IMG/VR virus record: IMGVR_UViG_3300020213_000131
Span: 1-20,785 of that record
Reading direction: 5' to 3' (one strand)
Source: a virus
DNA: 20,785 nt
This document shows positions 2,062 through 20,785 of this stretch, piece after piece. The stretch's first letter is position 1, and each line of letters begins with the position of its first letter. The notes beneath the pieces were generated by a model. That model did no database searches. It had not been told where the DNA came from and saw nothing but the letters and a program-made list of their open reading frames with translations. A program made the translations under genes and the position numbers.

Positions 2062-4440
2062 ATGATCCAAATTCTTGGACTGAGATCCTTCACCCCAAAT
2101 GGCGAAACAGTAAACTTTGACAAGATCTTTGACACGGGCCTCTGCATTGAAACGGTGCAGGAACTATTCTCCAGGTTGCCTGAAGTTCTTTCTCGAATTA
2201 GTCCTTCCGAACATTGGAACCTTTTCTACACGCTCGCAAATTGTGGCGAGAAAAAGCGTGCGTTTGAATCCACCGCCGCCTTGGCGTTTGACATCGACGG
2301 TTTTGAAAGAGAGCGTGGCAAAGAGTATGAACCGATTATTCGCGCCTTGCTACAAGTAGACCCAGAGCAACTCGCAGTGGTGTCGTCAGGCAACGGCCTA
2401 CACTTTGTCATGCAACTAGAAACTCGCGTCACTGACCGGAATTTTTTCACCGAGCAACGCCCGCACTACAAAGCCGTAGCGGCTAAGATCAACGCGGCGC
2501 TGCTCGCGGCTGGTCTACCAGGCAAAGCTGACACCGCCATCTTTGACGCCAGGCGGATTCTCAGACTGCCCGGCACTAAGAACATCAAGCCGGGGAAACC
2601 CGAGCGTATGTGTAAGCTCATACGCACCATGACCCAGCCCGTGGACTTTTGTTTGGCTACTATCTCTGGTCTGCCCCTGCTCAAAAAAACTGATTCCCTG
2701 CCCCCGGCTGTCACCAAGAGGCAGACTCAAAACTTCCCCAGTGCCGTCCTGGAAGGCTGCTCTTTTCTTTCCCACTGCTACACCTCCGCTGCCTCACTTG
2801 ACGAGCCCACCTGGTACGCCGCCCTCTCCGTCGTAGCTAGGTTAGATGGGGAAGGAGCCACAGGTAGGGAGCGGGCACACCAGCTCTCCAGTGGCCACCC
2901 TGGCTACTCAGTAGAAGAGACCGACAAAAAGATTGACCAGGCCCTAAACGCCAGCGGCCCTCGGACCTGTGACTACATCAAGAACATGTGGGATGGATGT
3001 CCCAAGTGCCCTAACTTTGGCAAGGTCAGCAGCCCGATCATGCTCGCACCGAAGGATGCCATCGGCACTGAGCACACAGGGTTTCACACGGTTGGCGTGG
3101 ATAGTAAGGGGAAGCCTAAGAGCACACCAAACTATGAGGATCTGATTTCATTCTTTTCAAGGGAGCACAAGTTCAAGGTACTAGCTGATTCCCGCCAGGT
3201 GTGCGTGTGGAACAAGCACCACTACGAACCCATGCAAAAGCCGAGCATGGAGGCATTCTCCCGGAAGTATTTTGATCCCAAGCCCGAGGTCAAGGTAATG
3301 GAGGAGTTTAGAAAGCGTCTGACCGTCGCCAACATCGTCCCCATGGTGTGGTGGCAGGACTCCATTAAGAGGAAAATGAACTTTCTTAACGGCTACTTAG
3401 ACATAGACAGCATGGAGTTCAGACCCCACGACATTGACCTCGCCTTTCGCAACATCCTGCCCTACGAGTATGACCCCACGGCCCGCGCACCGCTCTTTGA
3501 ACACATGCTCGGGCAAGTAACGGCTGGTAATAACGACCTTCAGAAGATTCTTATGGAGTTTGTTGGGTATGCCCTTAGCAATGACGACTGCTGGGCGCAA
3601 AAGGTTTTGGTTTTGGTGGGAGATGGGGCGAATGGAAAGAGTACTTTTCTTAATATTGTCAAAGATTTAGTTGGCTGGGGCAACTACACCAGCATATCTA
3701 TGCCAGATCTGGCCAAGTCGGAATACTCCAGGCACATGCTTGATGGGAAGCTGTTTAACATTTCAGACGAAACGCCCACCAAGGCTTTGCTAGATAGCTC
3801 GATTTTTAAGTCCCTCGCCACGGGGGGCGAGGTGCAGGCCAGGCCAATCTATGGCTCGCCATACACAGTGCGAAATAAAGCCAAGCTGTTTTTTAACTGC
3901 AACGACATGCCCGAGTCGTCGGACAGCTCCTACGGATTCTTTAGAAGGCTAATCATCGTCCCATTCACTCAGGTCTTCACCAAAGACCAGGGGGGGTATG
4001 ACCCCCATATCGAGGCCAAGCTCAGGGGGGAGCTCGCTGGGATATTTAACCTGGCCATGACTGGCTACCATCGGCTCGTGCGCCAAGGGGCATTTACTGA
4101 GAGCGAGGTGGTCAAAAGGACCGTTGATGAATACCAGACGGAAAGCGACTCGGTGCTTTACTGGGCTAAAGAGTACTTGGTGGTCCACACCAACGGGGGG
4201 TTTGATGCTCACTCGGCCCCGATAGGCGACATGTATAAAGCTTACGCAGACATAATGAAGGCCGAACAAAGGTATCCAATCACCAAGAGCAAATTTGAAA
4301 AAAGGCTCTCCAAACTGAGCGGCGAAGTTTGGGGCGAGCACCCGTATCGGGAGCGAGCTACCAAGATTTATGTGGATCAAAAAGGAAAAAAGAAACAAGT
4401 ACGGGCACTTAAGGGTGTTGAGATTGAAAGTATCAACTGA
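2062..4440 (+). CDS. Primase-helicase (AEP primase plus SF3/D5-type helicase)
   Basis: This 792-residue replication protein initiates and unwinds at the phage origin. The N-terminal archaeo-eukaryotic primase-type domain shows AFDID (D77, D79; metal ligands), SSGNGLHF (108-115, with H114) and DTAIFDARRILRLPGT around D162. A middle helical region resembles a PriCT linker and ends in a cysteine cluster, TCDYIKNMWDGCPKCPN (about 302-318), probably zinc-binding. The C-terminal superfamily 3 helicase has Walker A GDGANGKST (520-528), a Walker B/ISDE-type acidic segment and FFNCNDMP, with the sensor asparagine, followed by the FFRRLIIVPF motif. The ATG has GGAG seven bases upstream. The combined layout is typical of P4/D5-like phage and plasmid primases. 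Confidence 0.93.
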   Translation: MIQILGLRSFTPNGETVNFDKIFDTGLCIETVQELFSRLPEVLSRISPSEHWNLFYTLANCGEKKRAFESTAALAFDIDGFERERGKEYEPIIRALLQVDPEQLAVVSSGNGLHFVMQLETRVTDRNFFTEQRPHYKAVAAKINAALLAAGLPGKADTAIFDARRILRLPGTKNIKPGKPERMCKLIRTMTQPVDFCLATISGLPLLKKTDSLPPAVTKRQTQNFPSAVLEGCSFLSHCYTSAASLDEPTWYAALSVVARLDGEGATGRERAHQLSSGHPGYSVEETDKKIDQALNASGPRTCDYIKNMWDGCPKCPNFGKVSSPIMLAPKDAIGTEHTGFHTVGVDSKGKPKSTPNYEDLISFFSREHKFKVLADSRQVCVWNKHHYEPMQKPSMEAFSRKYFDPKPEVKVMEEFRKRLTVANIVPMVWWQDSIKRKMNFLNGYLDIDSMEFRPHDIDLAFRNILPYEYDPTARAPLFEHMLGQVTAGNNDLQKILMEFVGYALSNDDCWAQKVLVLVGDGANGKSTFLNIVKDLVGWGNYTSISMPDLAKSEYSRHMLDGKLFNISDETPTKALLDSSIFKSLATGGEVQARPIYGSPYTVRNKAKLFFNCNDMPESSDSSYGFFRRLIIVPFTQVFTKDQGGYDPHIEAKLRGELAGIFNLAMTGYHRLVRQGAFTESEVVKRTVDEYQTESDSVLYWAKEYLVVHTNGGFDAHSAPIGDMYKAYADIMKAEQRYPITKSKFEKRLSKLSGEVWGEHPYRERATKIYVDQKGKKKQVRALKGVEIESIN

Positions 4441-4663
4441 GGCACTCCTTTACCACCAGAGGGTGTGTCTCATACTGTCCGGATTGGAAAAAAAATAATA
4501 TTTATAGGTAGTTATAAGAATAAGACAGTAAAGACTTTATATATATATAAACATTATATATATATTCTGTATATATACATCCATCCCTCAATGCGCTCTA
4601 TACAAAAACTGTTGGAACCCCTAGCGTCTTTTGGTTTTACTGTCCTGGAGTGGAGAAAATACG
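4441..4663. other. AT-rich intergenic region with nested palindromes
   Basis: No convincing gene lies in this 223-bp gap. From about 4485 to 4580 the composition turns very AT-rich, unlike the balanced neighbours. It contains the perfect palindromes TTTATATATATATAAA (4536-4551) and TGTATATATACA (4568-4579), with another TA-run between them. Its place right after the primase-helicase gene and right before a ribbon-helix-helix gene suits a DNA-unwinding element of a replication origin, an operator-promoter, or both. No clear -35/-10 pair or oriented iterons could be chosen among the repeats. Confidence 0.5.
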
Positions 4664-15338: not shown

Positions 15339-15865
15339 GGCTTCTTTTCGTAACGTCAAACCTCATCGGGGCTCGCTTTATTAGGTGGGGGCTCGGGACT
15401 GATTGCAGTCATTTTGCAGTCTGTTTCGATGAAGACAGCCTGGGGCGCGGGATTGTTTTTCATAGCTATGGGGTCGGGGCTCAGCTTGAGTGGCTCGGTC
15501 ATTTCCAAAAGAAAAACATTACTGTGCATTCTTTGGAGTTTGTAGCAAAGCTGACCTTGCAAGAAGAAGAGGGCATCTACAAATCTTTGCTCAGTGAATA
15601 CTACGGGGAGGGCTACGACTATAAGGCTCTCCTCTATTGGACATGGCGAGGGATCCTAAACAAGTTTTTCAAGGTTCCGTTGCCACCTAAAAATAGGTGG
15701 GCCGTGGACGGCTACCAGCTTTGTACGGGTCTTGCCAAAGGTGTCCAGGTCATTGCAGAGCTCGCCAAGACCAGTGGCATGGATCTCGAGATGGTGAAGC
15801 CGCACGACCTTTACCACCTGCTACTTGATAGCGGATTTTTCAAGATACCTAGGGTGAAAATATGA
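15335..15865 (+). CDS. Permuted papain-fold (NlpC/P60-like) cysteine enzyme candidate
   Basis: The 176-residue product starts in an ATGA overlap. Near the N-terminus, GTDCSHFAVCFDED has a histidine (H26) in a strand, followed by VFHSYGVGAQLEWLGHF. Near residue 130 is DGYQLCTGLAKGV with C130 at the start of a helix. A histidine first and a cysteine in a Y-x-x-C-(S/T)-x-L-(A/V) helix later is the layout of circularly permuted papain-like enzymes (YiiX/LRAT-type NlpC/P60 branch), which cut peptide or amide bonds, often in cell-wall or acyl substrates. There is no signal peptide. It could be a wall-degrading virion enzyme, a maturation enzyme or a host-modifying protein. Confidence 0.62.
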   Translation: MRLLFVTSNLIGARFIRWGLGTDCSHFAVCFDEDSLGRGIVFHSYGVGAQLEWLGHFQKKNITVHSLEFVAKLTLQEEEGIYKSLLSEYYGEGYDYKALLYWTWRGILNKFFKVPLPPKNRWAVDGYQLCTGLAKGVQVIAELAKTSGMDLEMVKPHDLYHLLLDSGFFKIPRVKI

Positions 15866-16107
15866 GCGACGAAGTGGAGATGACCCTGTTTCAGCAAGCG
15901 GGAAGCATCCTGGGAACAATCCGCGCATCATTAATGGACGGTCGGCTCCTGGCGACCGAGGAAATGGTTCAGGCAAGGGCTACGGTCTGCATGTCTTGTG
16001 ACAAGCTTCGCCAGAAGCATAACAAGTTCTCGTGTGTAACTTGTGGCTGTGGGTTTAAGCGCAAGATTTCAATTCACGGATCGGCTTGCCCCCTAGGCAA
16101 GTGGTGA
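15862..16107 (+). CDS. Six-cysteine zinc-binding small protein
   Basis: This 81-residue protein starts in an ATGA overlap with the cysteine-enzyme gene. The C-terminal half has cysteines at 43, 46, 58, 61, 63 and 76: CMSCDKL, then SCVTCGCGFKRKIS and ACPLGKW. Two CxxC pairs about 12 residues apart make a rubredoxin-knuckle-like zinc site likely. The first 40 residues are helical. Similar CxxC...CxxCGC...CPxxKW proteins occur as small uncharacterised phage genes in head modules; I know no proven function for them. Perfect coupling with the upstream gene suggests the two products work together. Confidence 0.75.
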   Translation: MSDEVEMTLFQQAGSILGTIRASLMDGRLLATEEMVQARATVCMSCDKLRQKHNKFSCVTCGCGFKRKISIHGSACPLGKW

Positions 16108-18027: not shown

Positions 18028-19263
18028 ATGTCGAAGAACTACGCCTCAATCTATAACTCCACTAACGATTCTATAGCACTTGAGCAGAAGATCTTTATTA
18101 AAGAAGAAACTGCCCGTGGAGTTTTAATTGCACCGACCGGCGCAGACTTCCTCTTCACGCTTAACGGCGCGAGTGTCAACTTCTCGCAGCCTATTGAGAG
18201 CAGCCCGCACAAATCGGGACGCCACCACACCTCAGTCATCAAACAAAAAACCACCACCAGCTGGGCACTGCCAACCTTCTTCAACATCAATAGCCTGCTT
18301 GGCGCGGCTGGTGTTGCTGAAATTGACCCTGCCATGCGCGTTCTTTGGAAGTCCCTGATGGGCAAAGAAGATACAAGTGGGGGCAGTCCTGTCTACACGG
18401 CTGGTACTCCTCCAGATATCACCTTCTCAATCTTTGAAAACGGTGACCTTTGGGCAAAGCAAGCTCCAGGGTGCTTTGTTGACTCGGGCAATGCCACCTT
18501 TCCAGGTGATGGCCAGTCCCAAGTCGAGTGGGCAGGCATGGCAAAGACTTCTTTGCTAGTCGGTATCTCTAAATCCATCACTGCTAACGCGGCGAACGTC
18601 GTGACTGTAGCCGCGACTGAAGGCACCCGCTTTCCAGTCGGCTCTTTGGTTATGATCGTGAAGGCTGACGGTGTTACGCGGGCAACCGACACACCTACCG
18701 GCTCCCCGCGCACCGTTGTGTCAGCTACCTCCACCACTGTCACTCTAAGCGGTGCAGTTTTAAGTGACTCTGATGGGTCAGCCACCCCTGTCTATCTGTG
18801 CTACTACGAGCCAACCACTGCGGTTGCGATCAACGATCCCCAAACTGGTCTGGTCGGATCCATCACCATCGCGGGCCTTTCGTCTGCTGATTGTGTTCGC
18901 TCTGCCTCGCTCAACATGGTGAACAACCACGAGCCACAAGACTTCTGCTTTGGCGAAGAAGGTCTTGGCGGTCGGCTTTTCACTCCAGGCGGGCGCTTCA
19001 CTGCTGAGCTTAGCCTTGAACTGAACCTGAACCACGAGCTTGTGGAGTTTCTGAACCGTCAGAAGGATTTCACTGGGGAAAACATCACCATTATCCTTGG
19101 CGCTGCTGCTGGTCGGCACGTTCAAGTGGTGGTGCCAAAAGTAATCTTCCCTGTGCCAGAAATTGCAGTGCCAGACACCGGCACAATCCCAGTGACCTTT
19201 ACTGGTAATGCTTATCAGACGGCGCTTGACGCTGCTGATGAAGTGACTGTATCGTTCCTCTAA
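18028..19263 (+). CDS. Major tail tube protein
   Basis: This 411-residue protein has an AAGGAGG site nine bases before ATG. Position just before the frameshifted chaperone pair, high expression signal and strand-rich sequence identify the tail tube protein. Conserved-looking parts are IKEETARGVLIAPTGADFLF near the start, EWAGMAKTSLLVG in the middle, and GGRFTAELSLELNLNHELV to IPVTFTGNAYQTALDAADEV at the end. Between about 185 and 260 is a segment SITANAANVVTVAATEGTRF onwards to LCYYEP that looks like an inserted surface-exposed beta domain. That makes it longer than many tube proteins. No sheath gene follows, supporting a non-contractile tail. Confidence 0.82.
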   Translation: MSKNYASIYNSTNDSIALEQKIFIKEETARGVLIAPTGADFLFTLNGASVNFSQPIESSPHKSGRHHTSVIKQKTTTSWALPTFFNINSLLGAAGVAEIDPAMRVLWKSLMGKEDTSGGSPVYTAGTPPDITFSIFENGDLWAKQAPGCFVDSGNATFPGDGQSQVEWAGMAKTSLLVGISKSITANAANVVTVAATEGTRFPVGSLVMIVKADGVTRATDTPTGSPRTVVSATSTTVTLSGAVLSDSDGSATPVYLCYYEPTTAVAINDPQTGLVGSITIAGLSSADCVRSASLNMVNNHEPQDFCFGEEGLGGRLFTPGGRFTAELSLELNLNHELVEFLNRQKDFTGENITIILGAAAGRHVQVVVPKVIFPVPEIAVPDTGTIPVTFTGNAYQTALDAADEVTVSFL

Positions 19264-19298: not shown

Positions 19299-19745
19299 AT
19301 GGGGTTTATTCTAAGCATGGACACGGATAAAACCGTGTCGGTAATCGTGAGCAAAGATTCTTCAATCCGTGACGTTACGGAAGAAGTCTACGAGCAATAT
19401 TTAAAAGATCTCGACGAGTCAAAGCTCCCTATCCAGGGAGAGAGCACTCGTTTCATTCTCAGGAAAACCCTGCCGTACAAAGACACCAAGAAGGTGATGA
19501 ACAGCCAGGTATCCTTTGACGACGGCAAAGCTAGCGTGAATGTCAGCTACATCATGGATGAAGTACGCTGTGCATTAACGGGCATGGAAGGTCCAGGATC
19601 CGAGTCATTTAAGAAAGACAAGGACGGGTACGCTTCCATGGATGTCGTCAACGCGCTGTATAACAGCGGGGTGATGATGGATCTTTACAACGCGAGGCGA
19701 AATGCGGCGGGTGAAGGCACCGATAACGTACCAAAAAAAAGTTAG
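19299..19745 (+). CDS. Tail assembly chaperone, upstream (G-type) product
   Basis: This 148-residue protein follows an AGGGGGA site. It starts MGFILSMDTDKTVSVIVSKD and is alpha/beta in character, with VEEVYEQYL-like helices (TEEVYEQYLKDLDESKL). Its place between tail tube and tape measure is that of the lambda gpG-type chaperone, which coats the tape measure during tail assembly. The gene ends CCA AAA AAA AGT TAG, so its last codons overlap a slippery A-run. The abundant product would stop here; a minority is expected to continue in the -1 frame. Confidence 0.85.
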   Translation: MGFILSMDTDKTVSVIVSKDSSIRDVTEEVYEQYLKDLDESKLPIQGESTRFILRKTLPYKDTKKVMNSQVSFDDGKASVNVSYIMDEVRCALTGMEGPGSESFKKDKDGYASMDVVNALYNSGVMMDLYNARRNAAGEGTDNVPKKS

Positions 19746-20182
19746 AAGCCCTCCTGGAGCTTCACTTTACGGACCATGCGAAACTAGAGAAAAAGGGTAG
19801 GACGTTTGACTGCAAACGCTGCCCCGTAGCCACCCAAAAACTAAGGAGATGTCGCGAGGATAGGTGGGACTACACGGCGAAGGACAGTAATGTCTTTCCT
19901 ATCAGAATTAGCGAAGGAGGTGGTCTCTATGGTTTTTGCCCAGCTAAGTCGACATGGGACCAAGAGGCCATTAGTTTATTTGAGACGATGGTGGTAGCTG
20001 CGGAGCAAAAGGCAATGCTCGTTGAGGGGGGGATTGGAGATCAGCCATCGTGGTTTATTAGTATGCTTTCCTGGTTTGTCCCTGCTTACGACACGCAAAA
20101 ATTTGTGTCTCGGGCTAAAATGATTCTGGGGGATGCAGGCGACAGCAAGCAGCCTCTCAAAGCGCAGCAGGGGACAAAGTAA
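19299..20182 (+). CDS. Tail assembly chaperone frameshift fusion (GT-type)
   Basis: A -1 shift on A AAA AAA at 19733-19739 joins the first 147 codons to a second frame open from 19739 to TAA at 20180, giving 294 residues. I read every codon of the second part and found no stop. It starts KLEALLELHFTDHAKLEKKG and holds a cysteine group: FDCKRCP, RRCRED and YGFCPAK (four Cys), a likely zinc site. Then comes a helical EAISLFETMVVAAEQKAML and a hydrophobic FISMLSWFVPAY. The fused form would be the lambda gpGT-like minor product. A 240-base open stretch without its own good start supports this reading. Confidence 0.85.
19733..19763 (+). promoter_or_regulatory. Programmed -1 frameshift site with hairpin
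   Basis: The run A8 at 19733-19740 gives heptamer A AAA AAA in the X XXY YYZ form, in frame with CCA AAA AAA. The zero-frame stop is two codons later. Five bases on, GAAG at 19745-19748 and CTTC at 19760-19763, with CTC/GAG inside, can form an imperfect hairpin at suitable spacing. Confidence 0.8.
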
Positions 20183-20187
20183 ATCAA

Positions 20188-20785
20188 ATGGCAAAAGAAG
20201 ACATTTTAATAAATATCGACGTTGACTCTAAACCCGCCAAGCGTGGCGTCGATGATCTTAATAAAAGTCTTAGCGACAACGCCAAGCAAACTAAAATGAT
20301 TCAGCGCGAGCTTCAGCGCCTAGAAAAAGAATACAAGTCTATCGCTACGGCGGTAAATAAACTTCCCGATGATCAGATAAGCAAGCTCAGTAAAGAAGTT
20401 AAAAAGACAGAGCGAGCCACCAGTAGACTCCAAGATCAATTTGAGCGTACAGCGGGCAAGCTCGACCGGGTTCACGATAGGACGGTGGGGGCAACGCAGG
20501 CTTTCTCCGTTTTGTCGGCTGCAATGCTTGCCCTAGCCACGCTGGATCCTCTCATTAAGTTTTCTCAGCAAGTCACCAACGCCACGCAGGCGATTCTTTT
20601 ATTCAATAAAACTGTCATACCTGTCATTACGAGTACGGTTGAGAAAATCCGCCTTGGCTTTGCCAATATATCGACATCCTTGACGGGATTTAGACAAACC
20701 TTTGCCCTGATAGGACCCGCGATCAAAGAGCAAGTGCTCCTTCTCCAAGGCTTTCAGCTTGCGGCTGTGCGGACTTCCCTATTCA
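20188..20785 (+). CDS. Tape measure protein, partial (5' end)
   Basis: The frame opens at ATG 20188, five bases after the chaperone-fusion stop, and stays open for 199 codons to the window end. The product starts MAKEDILINIDVDSKPAKRG, the usual opening of phage tape measure proteins. A coiled-coil follows (MIQRELQRLEKEYKSIATA and KEVKKTERATSRLQDQFER), then hydrophobic stretches (FSVLSAAMLALATLDPLIKF). Tape measures set tail length and help DNA entry. No strong ribosome site is seen, so translation may depend on the upstream gene. The C-terminus is outside the window. Confidence 0.85.
   Translation, partial: MAKEDILINIDVDSKPAKRGVDDLNKSLSDNAKQTKMIQRELQRLEKEYKSIATAVNKLPDDQISKLSKEVKKTERATSRLQDQFERTAGKLDRVHDRTVGATQAFSVLSAAMLALATLDPLIKFSQQVTNATQAILLFNKTVIPVITSTVEKIRLGFANISTSLTGFRQTFALIGPAIKEQVLLLQGFQLAAVRTSLF

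Follow-up and report, generated by a model that had tools for sequence, protein, structure and literature searches.

A tailed phage from an environmental sample, represented by an IMG/VR viral fragment of 20,785 bases (here called the window, meaning the whole stretch of DNA analysed), probably makes two versions of its tail chaperone through a ribosomal slip on a run of A residues. It is highly probable that the region encodes a lambda G/GT-type chaperone, in which a -1 slip on A AAA AAA adds a tube-recruiting domain built on four cysteines and most likely held together by zinc. Most ribosomes would produce a 148-aa zero-frame protein, and a minority, shifting by -1 on A AAA AAA, where both Lys-tRNAs could re-pair perfectly, would yield a 294-aa fusion. 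As in lambda, the short form, present in many copies, would coat the tape measure protein, and a few copies of the fusion would carry tube protein subunits to this complex via the -1 domain, which in this phage group appears to be built around four invariant cysteines. The slip mechanism itself is textbook knowledge, and frameshifted tail assembly chaperones have already been described in -1, -2 and +1 versions (PMC5009743). The new part seems to be the Cys4 variant of the -1 domain, which carries no annotation in family libraries; no description of it as a family-wide feature was found in the libraries and non-subscription papers searched.

The junction in its genomic setting

The window displays a siphophage gene order, comprising terminase, portal, capsid, connectors, a tail tube-like gene, the chaperone region and the start of a tape measure gene. 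Among the connector genes, an 81-aa ORF at 15862-16107 has cysteine motifs of its own (CMSCD, CVTCGCGF and CPLGKW). The gene directly upstream of the chaperone (18028-19263, plus strand) encodes a tail tube or major tail protein-like product with a match to phrog_290 (E 2e-12), a family named minor tail protein; the product is called tube protein here from its position and by analogy. On the other side, positions 20188-20785 (plus strand) encode the N-terminal part of a tape measure protein (phrog_58, tail length tape measure, E 8e-8), cut by the contig end. The chaperone region therefore has the major tail protein gene on one side and the tape measure gene on the other, which is the lambda G/GT arrangement.

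The zero-frame chaperone, a lambda gpG-like ORF of 148 aa called at 19299-19745 (plus strand), ends with the codons GTA CCA AAA AAA AGT TAG. The slippery heptamer A AAA AAA lies in the phase of this frame at 19733-19739 (plus strand), inside an 8-A run at 19733-19740, one of only two A8 runs in the 20.8 kb window. The zero-frame stop TAG (19743-19745, plus strand) is the second codon past the heptamer. From 19739 the -1 frame runs for 147 codons without a stop, up to a TAA at 20180-20182, and this lambda gpT-like part (147 aa; 19739-20182, plus strand) is expected only as a fusion. Its translation reads KLEALLELHFTDHAKLEKKGRTFDCKRCP...LRRC...LYGFCPAK..., and the segment stayed open in 6 of 20,000 base-shuffled trials of equal length. 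The preliminary description, made from the letters of the DNA, had read the heptamer, its phase, the stop two codons on and the stop-free 147-codon frame as programmed frameshifting, and all of these elements are present at 19733-20182.

The same description counted a hairpin five bases downstream as part of the signal. A hairpin does lie 5 nt 3' of the heptamer (19745-19763, plus strand), but a role as stimulator is not borne out, as it is no stronger than chance: its energy is what this base composition would give on average (z = +0.42), with 136 of 200 shuffles folding equally well or better. In the closest relative (L027), no favourable fold was found downstream of the slip site. Averaged over the family, with the L025 row left out, downstream folding energy has a mean z of -1.14 vs -0.15 in control segments; no stimulator is claimed on this basis, because the relatives share ancestry and the window shows no folding excess. 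An upstream Shine-Dalgarno sequence as stimulator of the slip was considered and set aside as inconsistent across the family.

Relatives of the junction and routes to the frame change

Environmental relatives were collected in two sets. Set 1 comprises 55 distinct viral contigs retrieved via the -1 part and partly selected by the FCP motif; because of this selection, a second search relied on the upstream tail gene alone and gave set 2, with 57 distinct loci carrying both parts. The two sets share many contigs, and their counts are not additive. Every contig of set 1 has a zero-frame ORF and an open -1 frame (55/55), with an in-phase A AAA AAA/G heptamer at the junction, within runs of A7-A9. 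The zero-frame stop follows the heptamer at 0 or 3 nt in most cases and at 69 nt at the furthest. The same -1 junction and heptamer recur in 56 of the 57 loci of set 2 (54 with A AAA AAA, 2 with A AAA AAG). The exception, L130, appears to have both parts in one frame with a stop between them at about 4190-4250, together with the usual A run and cysteine pair, and shows an apparent one-base frame break near the contig end. Stops in the -1 frame of homologues had been named as evidence that would speak against the frameshift, and these frames are open. In addition, substitutions between relatives concentrate at third positions of the -1 frame (for example 27/22/67 at positions 1/2/3), which indicates that this frame is under protein-coding selection.

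The surroundings of the junction are conserved as well. A homologue of the tail gene precedes the chaperone in all 55 loci, and in this 55-locus set the next ORF is long in every locus whose contig continues. Two loci (L160 and L164, about 3770-4560) carry a serine recombinase/resolvase-like ORF that separates the tail tube-like gene from the chaperone region, and two others (L118 and L133) have about 1 kb of extra sequence there. Among genome contigs scanned with profiles of the -1 part, no relative of bacterial or prophage origin turned up.

Relatives among cultured phages were reached with a consensus query, which matched Agrobacterium phage JP1 in the stretch separating a hypothetical ORF from the tape measure gene. 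Starting from JP1, the search reached Rhizobium phages L338C, RHph_I4 and RHph_TM16, Rhodobacter phages RcTiptonus and RcZahn, and Alteromonas phage P24. In all seven, the downstream part lies in the -1 frame, contains the four cysteines and is preceded by an in-phase canonical heptamer. When the cultured phages were aligned with the window family by hhalign, the T half scored a probability of 95% (E 2e-8) and the G half 67% (E 5e-5), both above all 100 column shuffles, confirming that each half is homologous, if remotely, to the cultured-phage proteins. Two of these proteins, RcTiptonus gp42 and RcZahn gp28, are annotated as tail assembly chaperones. The cultured relatives therefore resemble the window in their homologous halves, -1 heptamer, four cysteines and, where the record extends, the tape measure gene that follows. 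They differ in the heptamer, which is A AAA AAC in JP1, RcZahn, TM16 and P24, A AAA AAG in RcTiptonus and G GGA AAC in L338C and I4, vs A AAA AAA in the window, and their -1 parts are only 12-21% identical to that of the window and usually annotated as separate hypothetical proteins.

This distribution makes it extremely improbable that the split arose from a sequencing error or from decay of a pseudogene by a homopolymer indel. The junction is a homopolymer, as such an origin would lead one to expect, but the same -1 relation is found in more than 55 distinct contigs and also in cultured genomes with non-homopolymer sites.

It is likewise very unlikely that the two parts are separate genes, with the -1 part initiated independently, by reinitiation or coupling, once the zero-frame stop is reached. 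Separate ORFs are annotated in cultured relatives (for example JP1_032 and RcTiptonus gp43), and an ATG, GTG or TTG occurs between the upstream stop and the first cysteine in 29 of 55 loci. However, the other 26 loci have no such start, 42 of 55 have no ATG, and JP1_032 is annotated to start only after the conserved cysteines. The window has its first ATG, GTG or TTG of the -1 frame at about residue 83, past all four cysteine codons.

The third route, by which RNA polymerase adds an A on the homopolymer, alone or beside ribosomal slippage, would give the same fusion and deserves more weight, although it too is unlikely. The A run is longer than the heptamer requires (A8 or A9) in 50 of 56 loci, nine A/T residues are efficient for transcriptional slippage in bacteria (PMC5009743), and such slippage has been demonstrated at an A11 run in tssM (PMC4256274). 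On the other hand, the remaining 6 of the 56 loci have A7 only, each time phased as the canonical A AAA AAA, one locus (L025) has A AAA AAC with six A's, and cultured homologues use A AAA AAC or G GGA AAC; a homopolymer of about 9 or more is consequently not found at every junction. The comparison with Thermus dnaX and Citrobacter tssM leads the same way: these genes also give two length variants through a frame change on a homopolymer, but their runs are 9-11 bases long, whereas this family includes A7 and non-homopolymer sites. Since neither G GGA AAC nor A AAA AAC is a long homopolymer, the wider family is taken to share ribosomal -1 slippage as its mechanism, and RNA polymerase slippage may add to it in members with A8 or A9, including the window, because 9 A's suffice in bacteria (PMC5009743). 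We infer both the occurrence and the rate of the slip and, at the A8 run of the window, its ribosomal rather than polymerase origin. At 19 of 56 loci the slip site is read in the zero frame as AAA AAA AAA, a codon triplet found very rarely in genes of E. coli (PMC5009743).

Two relatives reach the same four-cysteine protein by another shift. In L087 and L088 (about 2975-3000), the junction needs +1 (or -2) at TCG/TCA AAA AGT, which indicates that the direction of the shift changed at least once within the family.

The four-cysteine domain

The -1 part contains the motifs CKRCP, RRC and YGFC, which supply Cys25, Cys28, Cys38 and Cys67. In an alignment of 57 sequences, 56 of which cover the first pair, the Cys25-x2-Cys28 codons (CKRC; 19811-19822, plus strand) are invariant in 56 of 56, and the codons of Cys38 (RRC; 19850-19852, plus strand) and Cys67 (YGFCP; 19937-19939, plus strand) in 57 of 57; all are also kept across the cultured relatives. 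The four cysteines are invariant in every complete homologue, including the loci of set 2 that were chosen without the motif. The loops between them vary: L117 and L127 gain 9 residues between the second and third cysteine, and L107 has YCPGK in place of FCP.K. Lambda gpT contains no cysteine. The cluster noted in the preliminary description, and its absence from the classic lambda example, accordingly hold, and the cluster proves to be a family-wide feature.

The Cys4 arrangement is predicted from sequence to be a likely zinc site, with the four cysteines most likely holding one structural zinc ion. Searches against zinc domain families returned only poor Pfam matches for single members (best E 0.045-0.067), and sequence and fold searches of the -1 part against the PDB gave no match. 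It is possible, but rather unlikely, that the cysteines are conserved for disulfide formation or redox activity, or as iron-sulfur ligands. The motif by itself does not identify the ligand, and around the cysteines the AF2 model of the -1 part has low confidence (pLDDT about 50-60), which leaves room for these options. Against them, a C-x2-C...C...CP pattern in which the cysteines stay fixed and the loops between them vary is what structural zinc sites typically show, and chaperones work in the reducing cytoplasm, an environment that argues against disulfide or redox functions.

Proposed tail assembly roles and comparison with lambda

Structure prediction points to a tail role for the zero-frame part. 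Its AF2 model has a pLDDT of 81.5, and the predicted fold resembles tail assembly chaperones: the named BFVD matches are mostly members of this class (best named probability 0.99, E 0.027). Among solved structures, the top Foldseek match is the HK97 tail assembly chaperone 2ob9, although the match is weak (E 0.5, TM 0.40 on target, 16% identity). Together with position, phase and stop-free homologues, this fold supports the original reading of the region as a -1 frameshifted tail assembly chaperone. Family searches were less informative. The zero-frame part had no Pfam or NCBIfam match and only a marginal PHROG match to an unnamed family (best E 0.0013). For the -1 part, a search against tail chaperone families had been suggested; nothing significant was found in Pfam, PHROGs or NCBIfam. 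No profile similarity to lambda G or T was detectable by hhalign, and none to PF06223 (Phage_tail_T) was found; this absence is not taken as defining, because low similarity between phages is usual for these genes (PMC5009743).

The system shares with lambda G/GT its position between tube protein and tape measure, a short product accompanied by a -1 fusion, and a slip site located shortly before the first frame ends. It differs in the slip site, since the A AAA AAA of the window is not that of lambda, and in its four invariant cysteines, vs none in gpT. In lambda, the tape measure is bound by G, both as the short form and as the first half of the fusion, and T, the other half, brings in the major tail protein (PMC5009743). 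This precedent makes the tube protein a likelier partner of the cysteine domain than the tape measure, so that of the partners first proposed, the tape measure or other tail proteins, the second now appears the better candidate. By the same analogy, the zero-frame part would act on the tape measure and the -1 part on the tube protein. Pairwise identity has its highest median in the tail gene (53%), followed by the -1 part (48%), the zero-frame part (37%) and the N-terminus of the tape measure (24%), a ranking that fits lambda-like roles but does not prove them. Co-evolution of the -1 part with the tube protein is not claimed, because the link between their pairwise identities is weak (rho 0.22).

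The Cys4 -1 domain offers a compact, testable model of how the fusion may recruit the tube protein through a predicted zinc-dependent domain. A broader proposal, which remains tentative and on balance doubtful, is that the -1 part forms a separate class of zinc-held, tube-recruiting Cys4 domains unrelated to gpT and spread across a large group of environmental siphophages. In this proposal, one lineage with A8 or A9 runs would slip by both ribosome and RNA polymerase, and another (L087 and L088) would make the same protein by a +1 shift.

The four-cysteine -1 domain is present in dozens of phages, and gene annotation usually overlooks it. Its absence from Pfam, PHROGs and NCBIfam is probably explained by the frequent lack of a start of its own, which leads gene callers to miss or truncate it, even in cultured phages. 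With the C-x2-C...C...CP signature, annotators can find the frameshift again in many genomes, of which RcZahn is one example. The authors of that genome reported no clear frameshift signal (PMC8601537); in its record (MW677529; L091:2456-2462), gene 27 has an A AAA AAC heptamer close to its end, phased so that a -1 shift would lead into the frame of gene 28.
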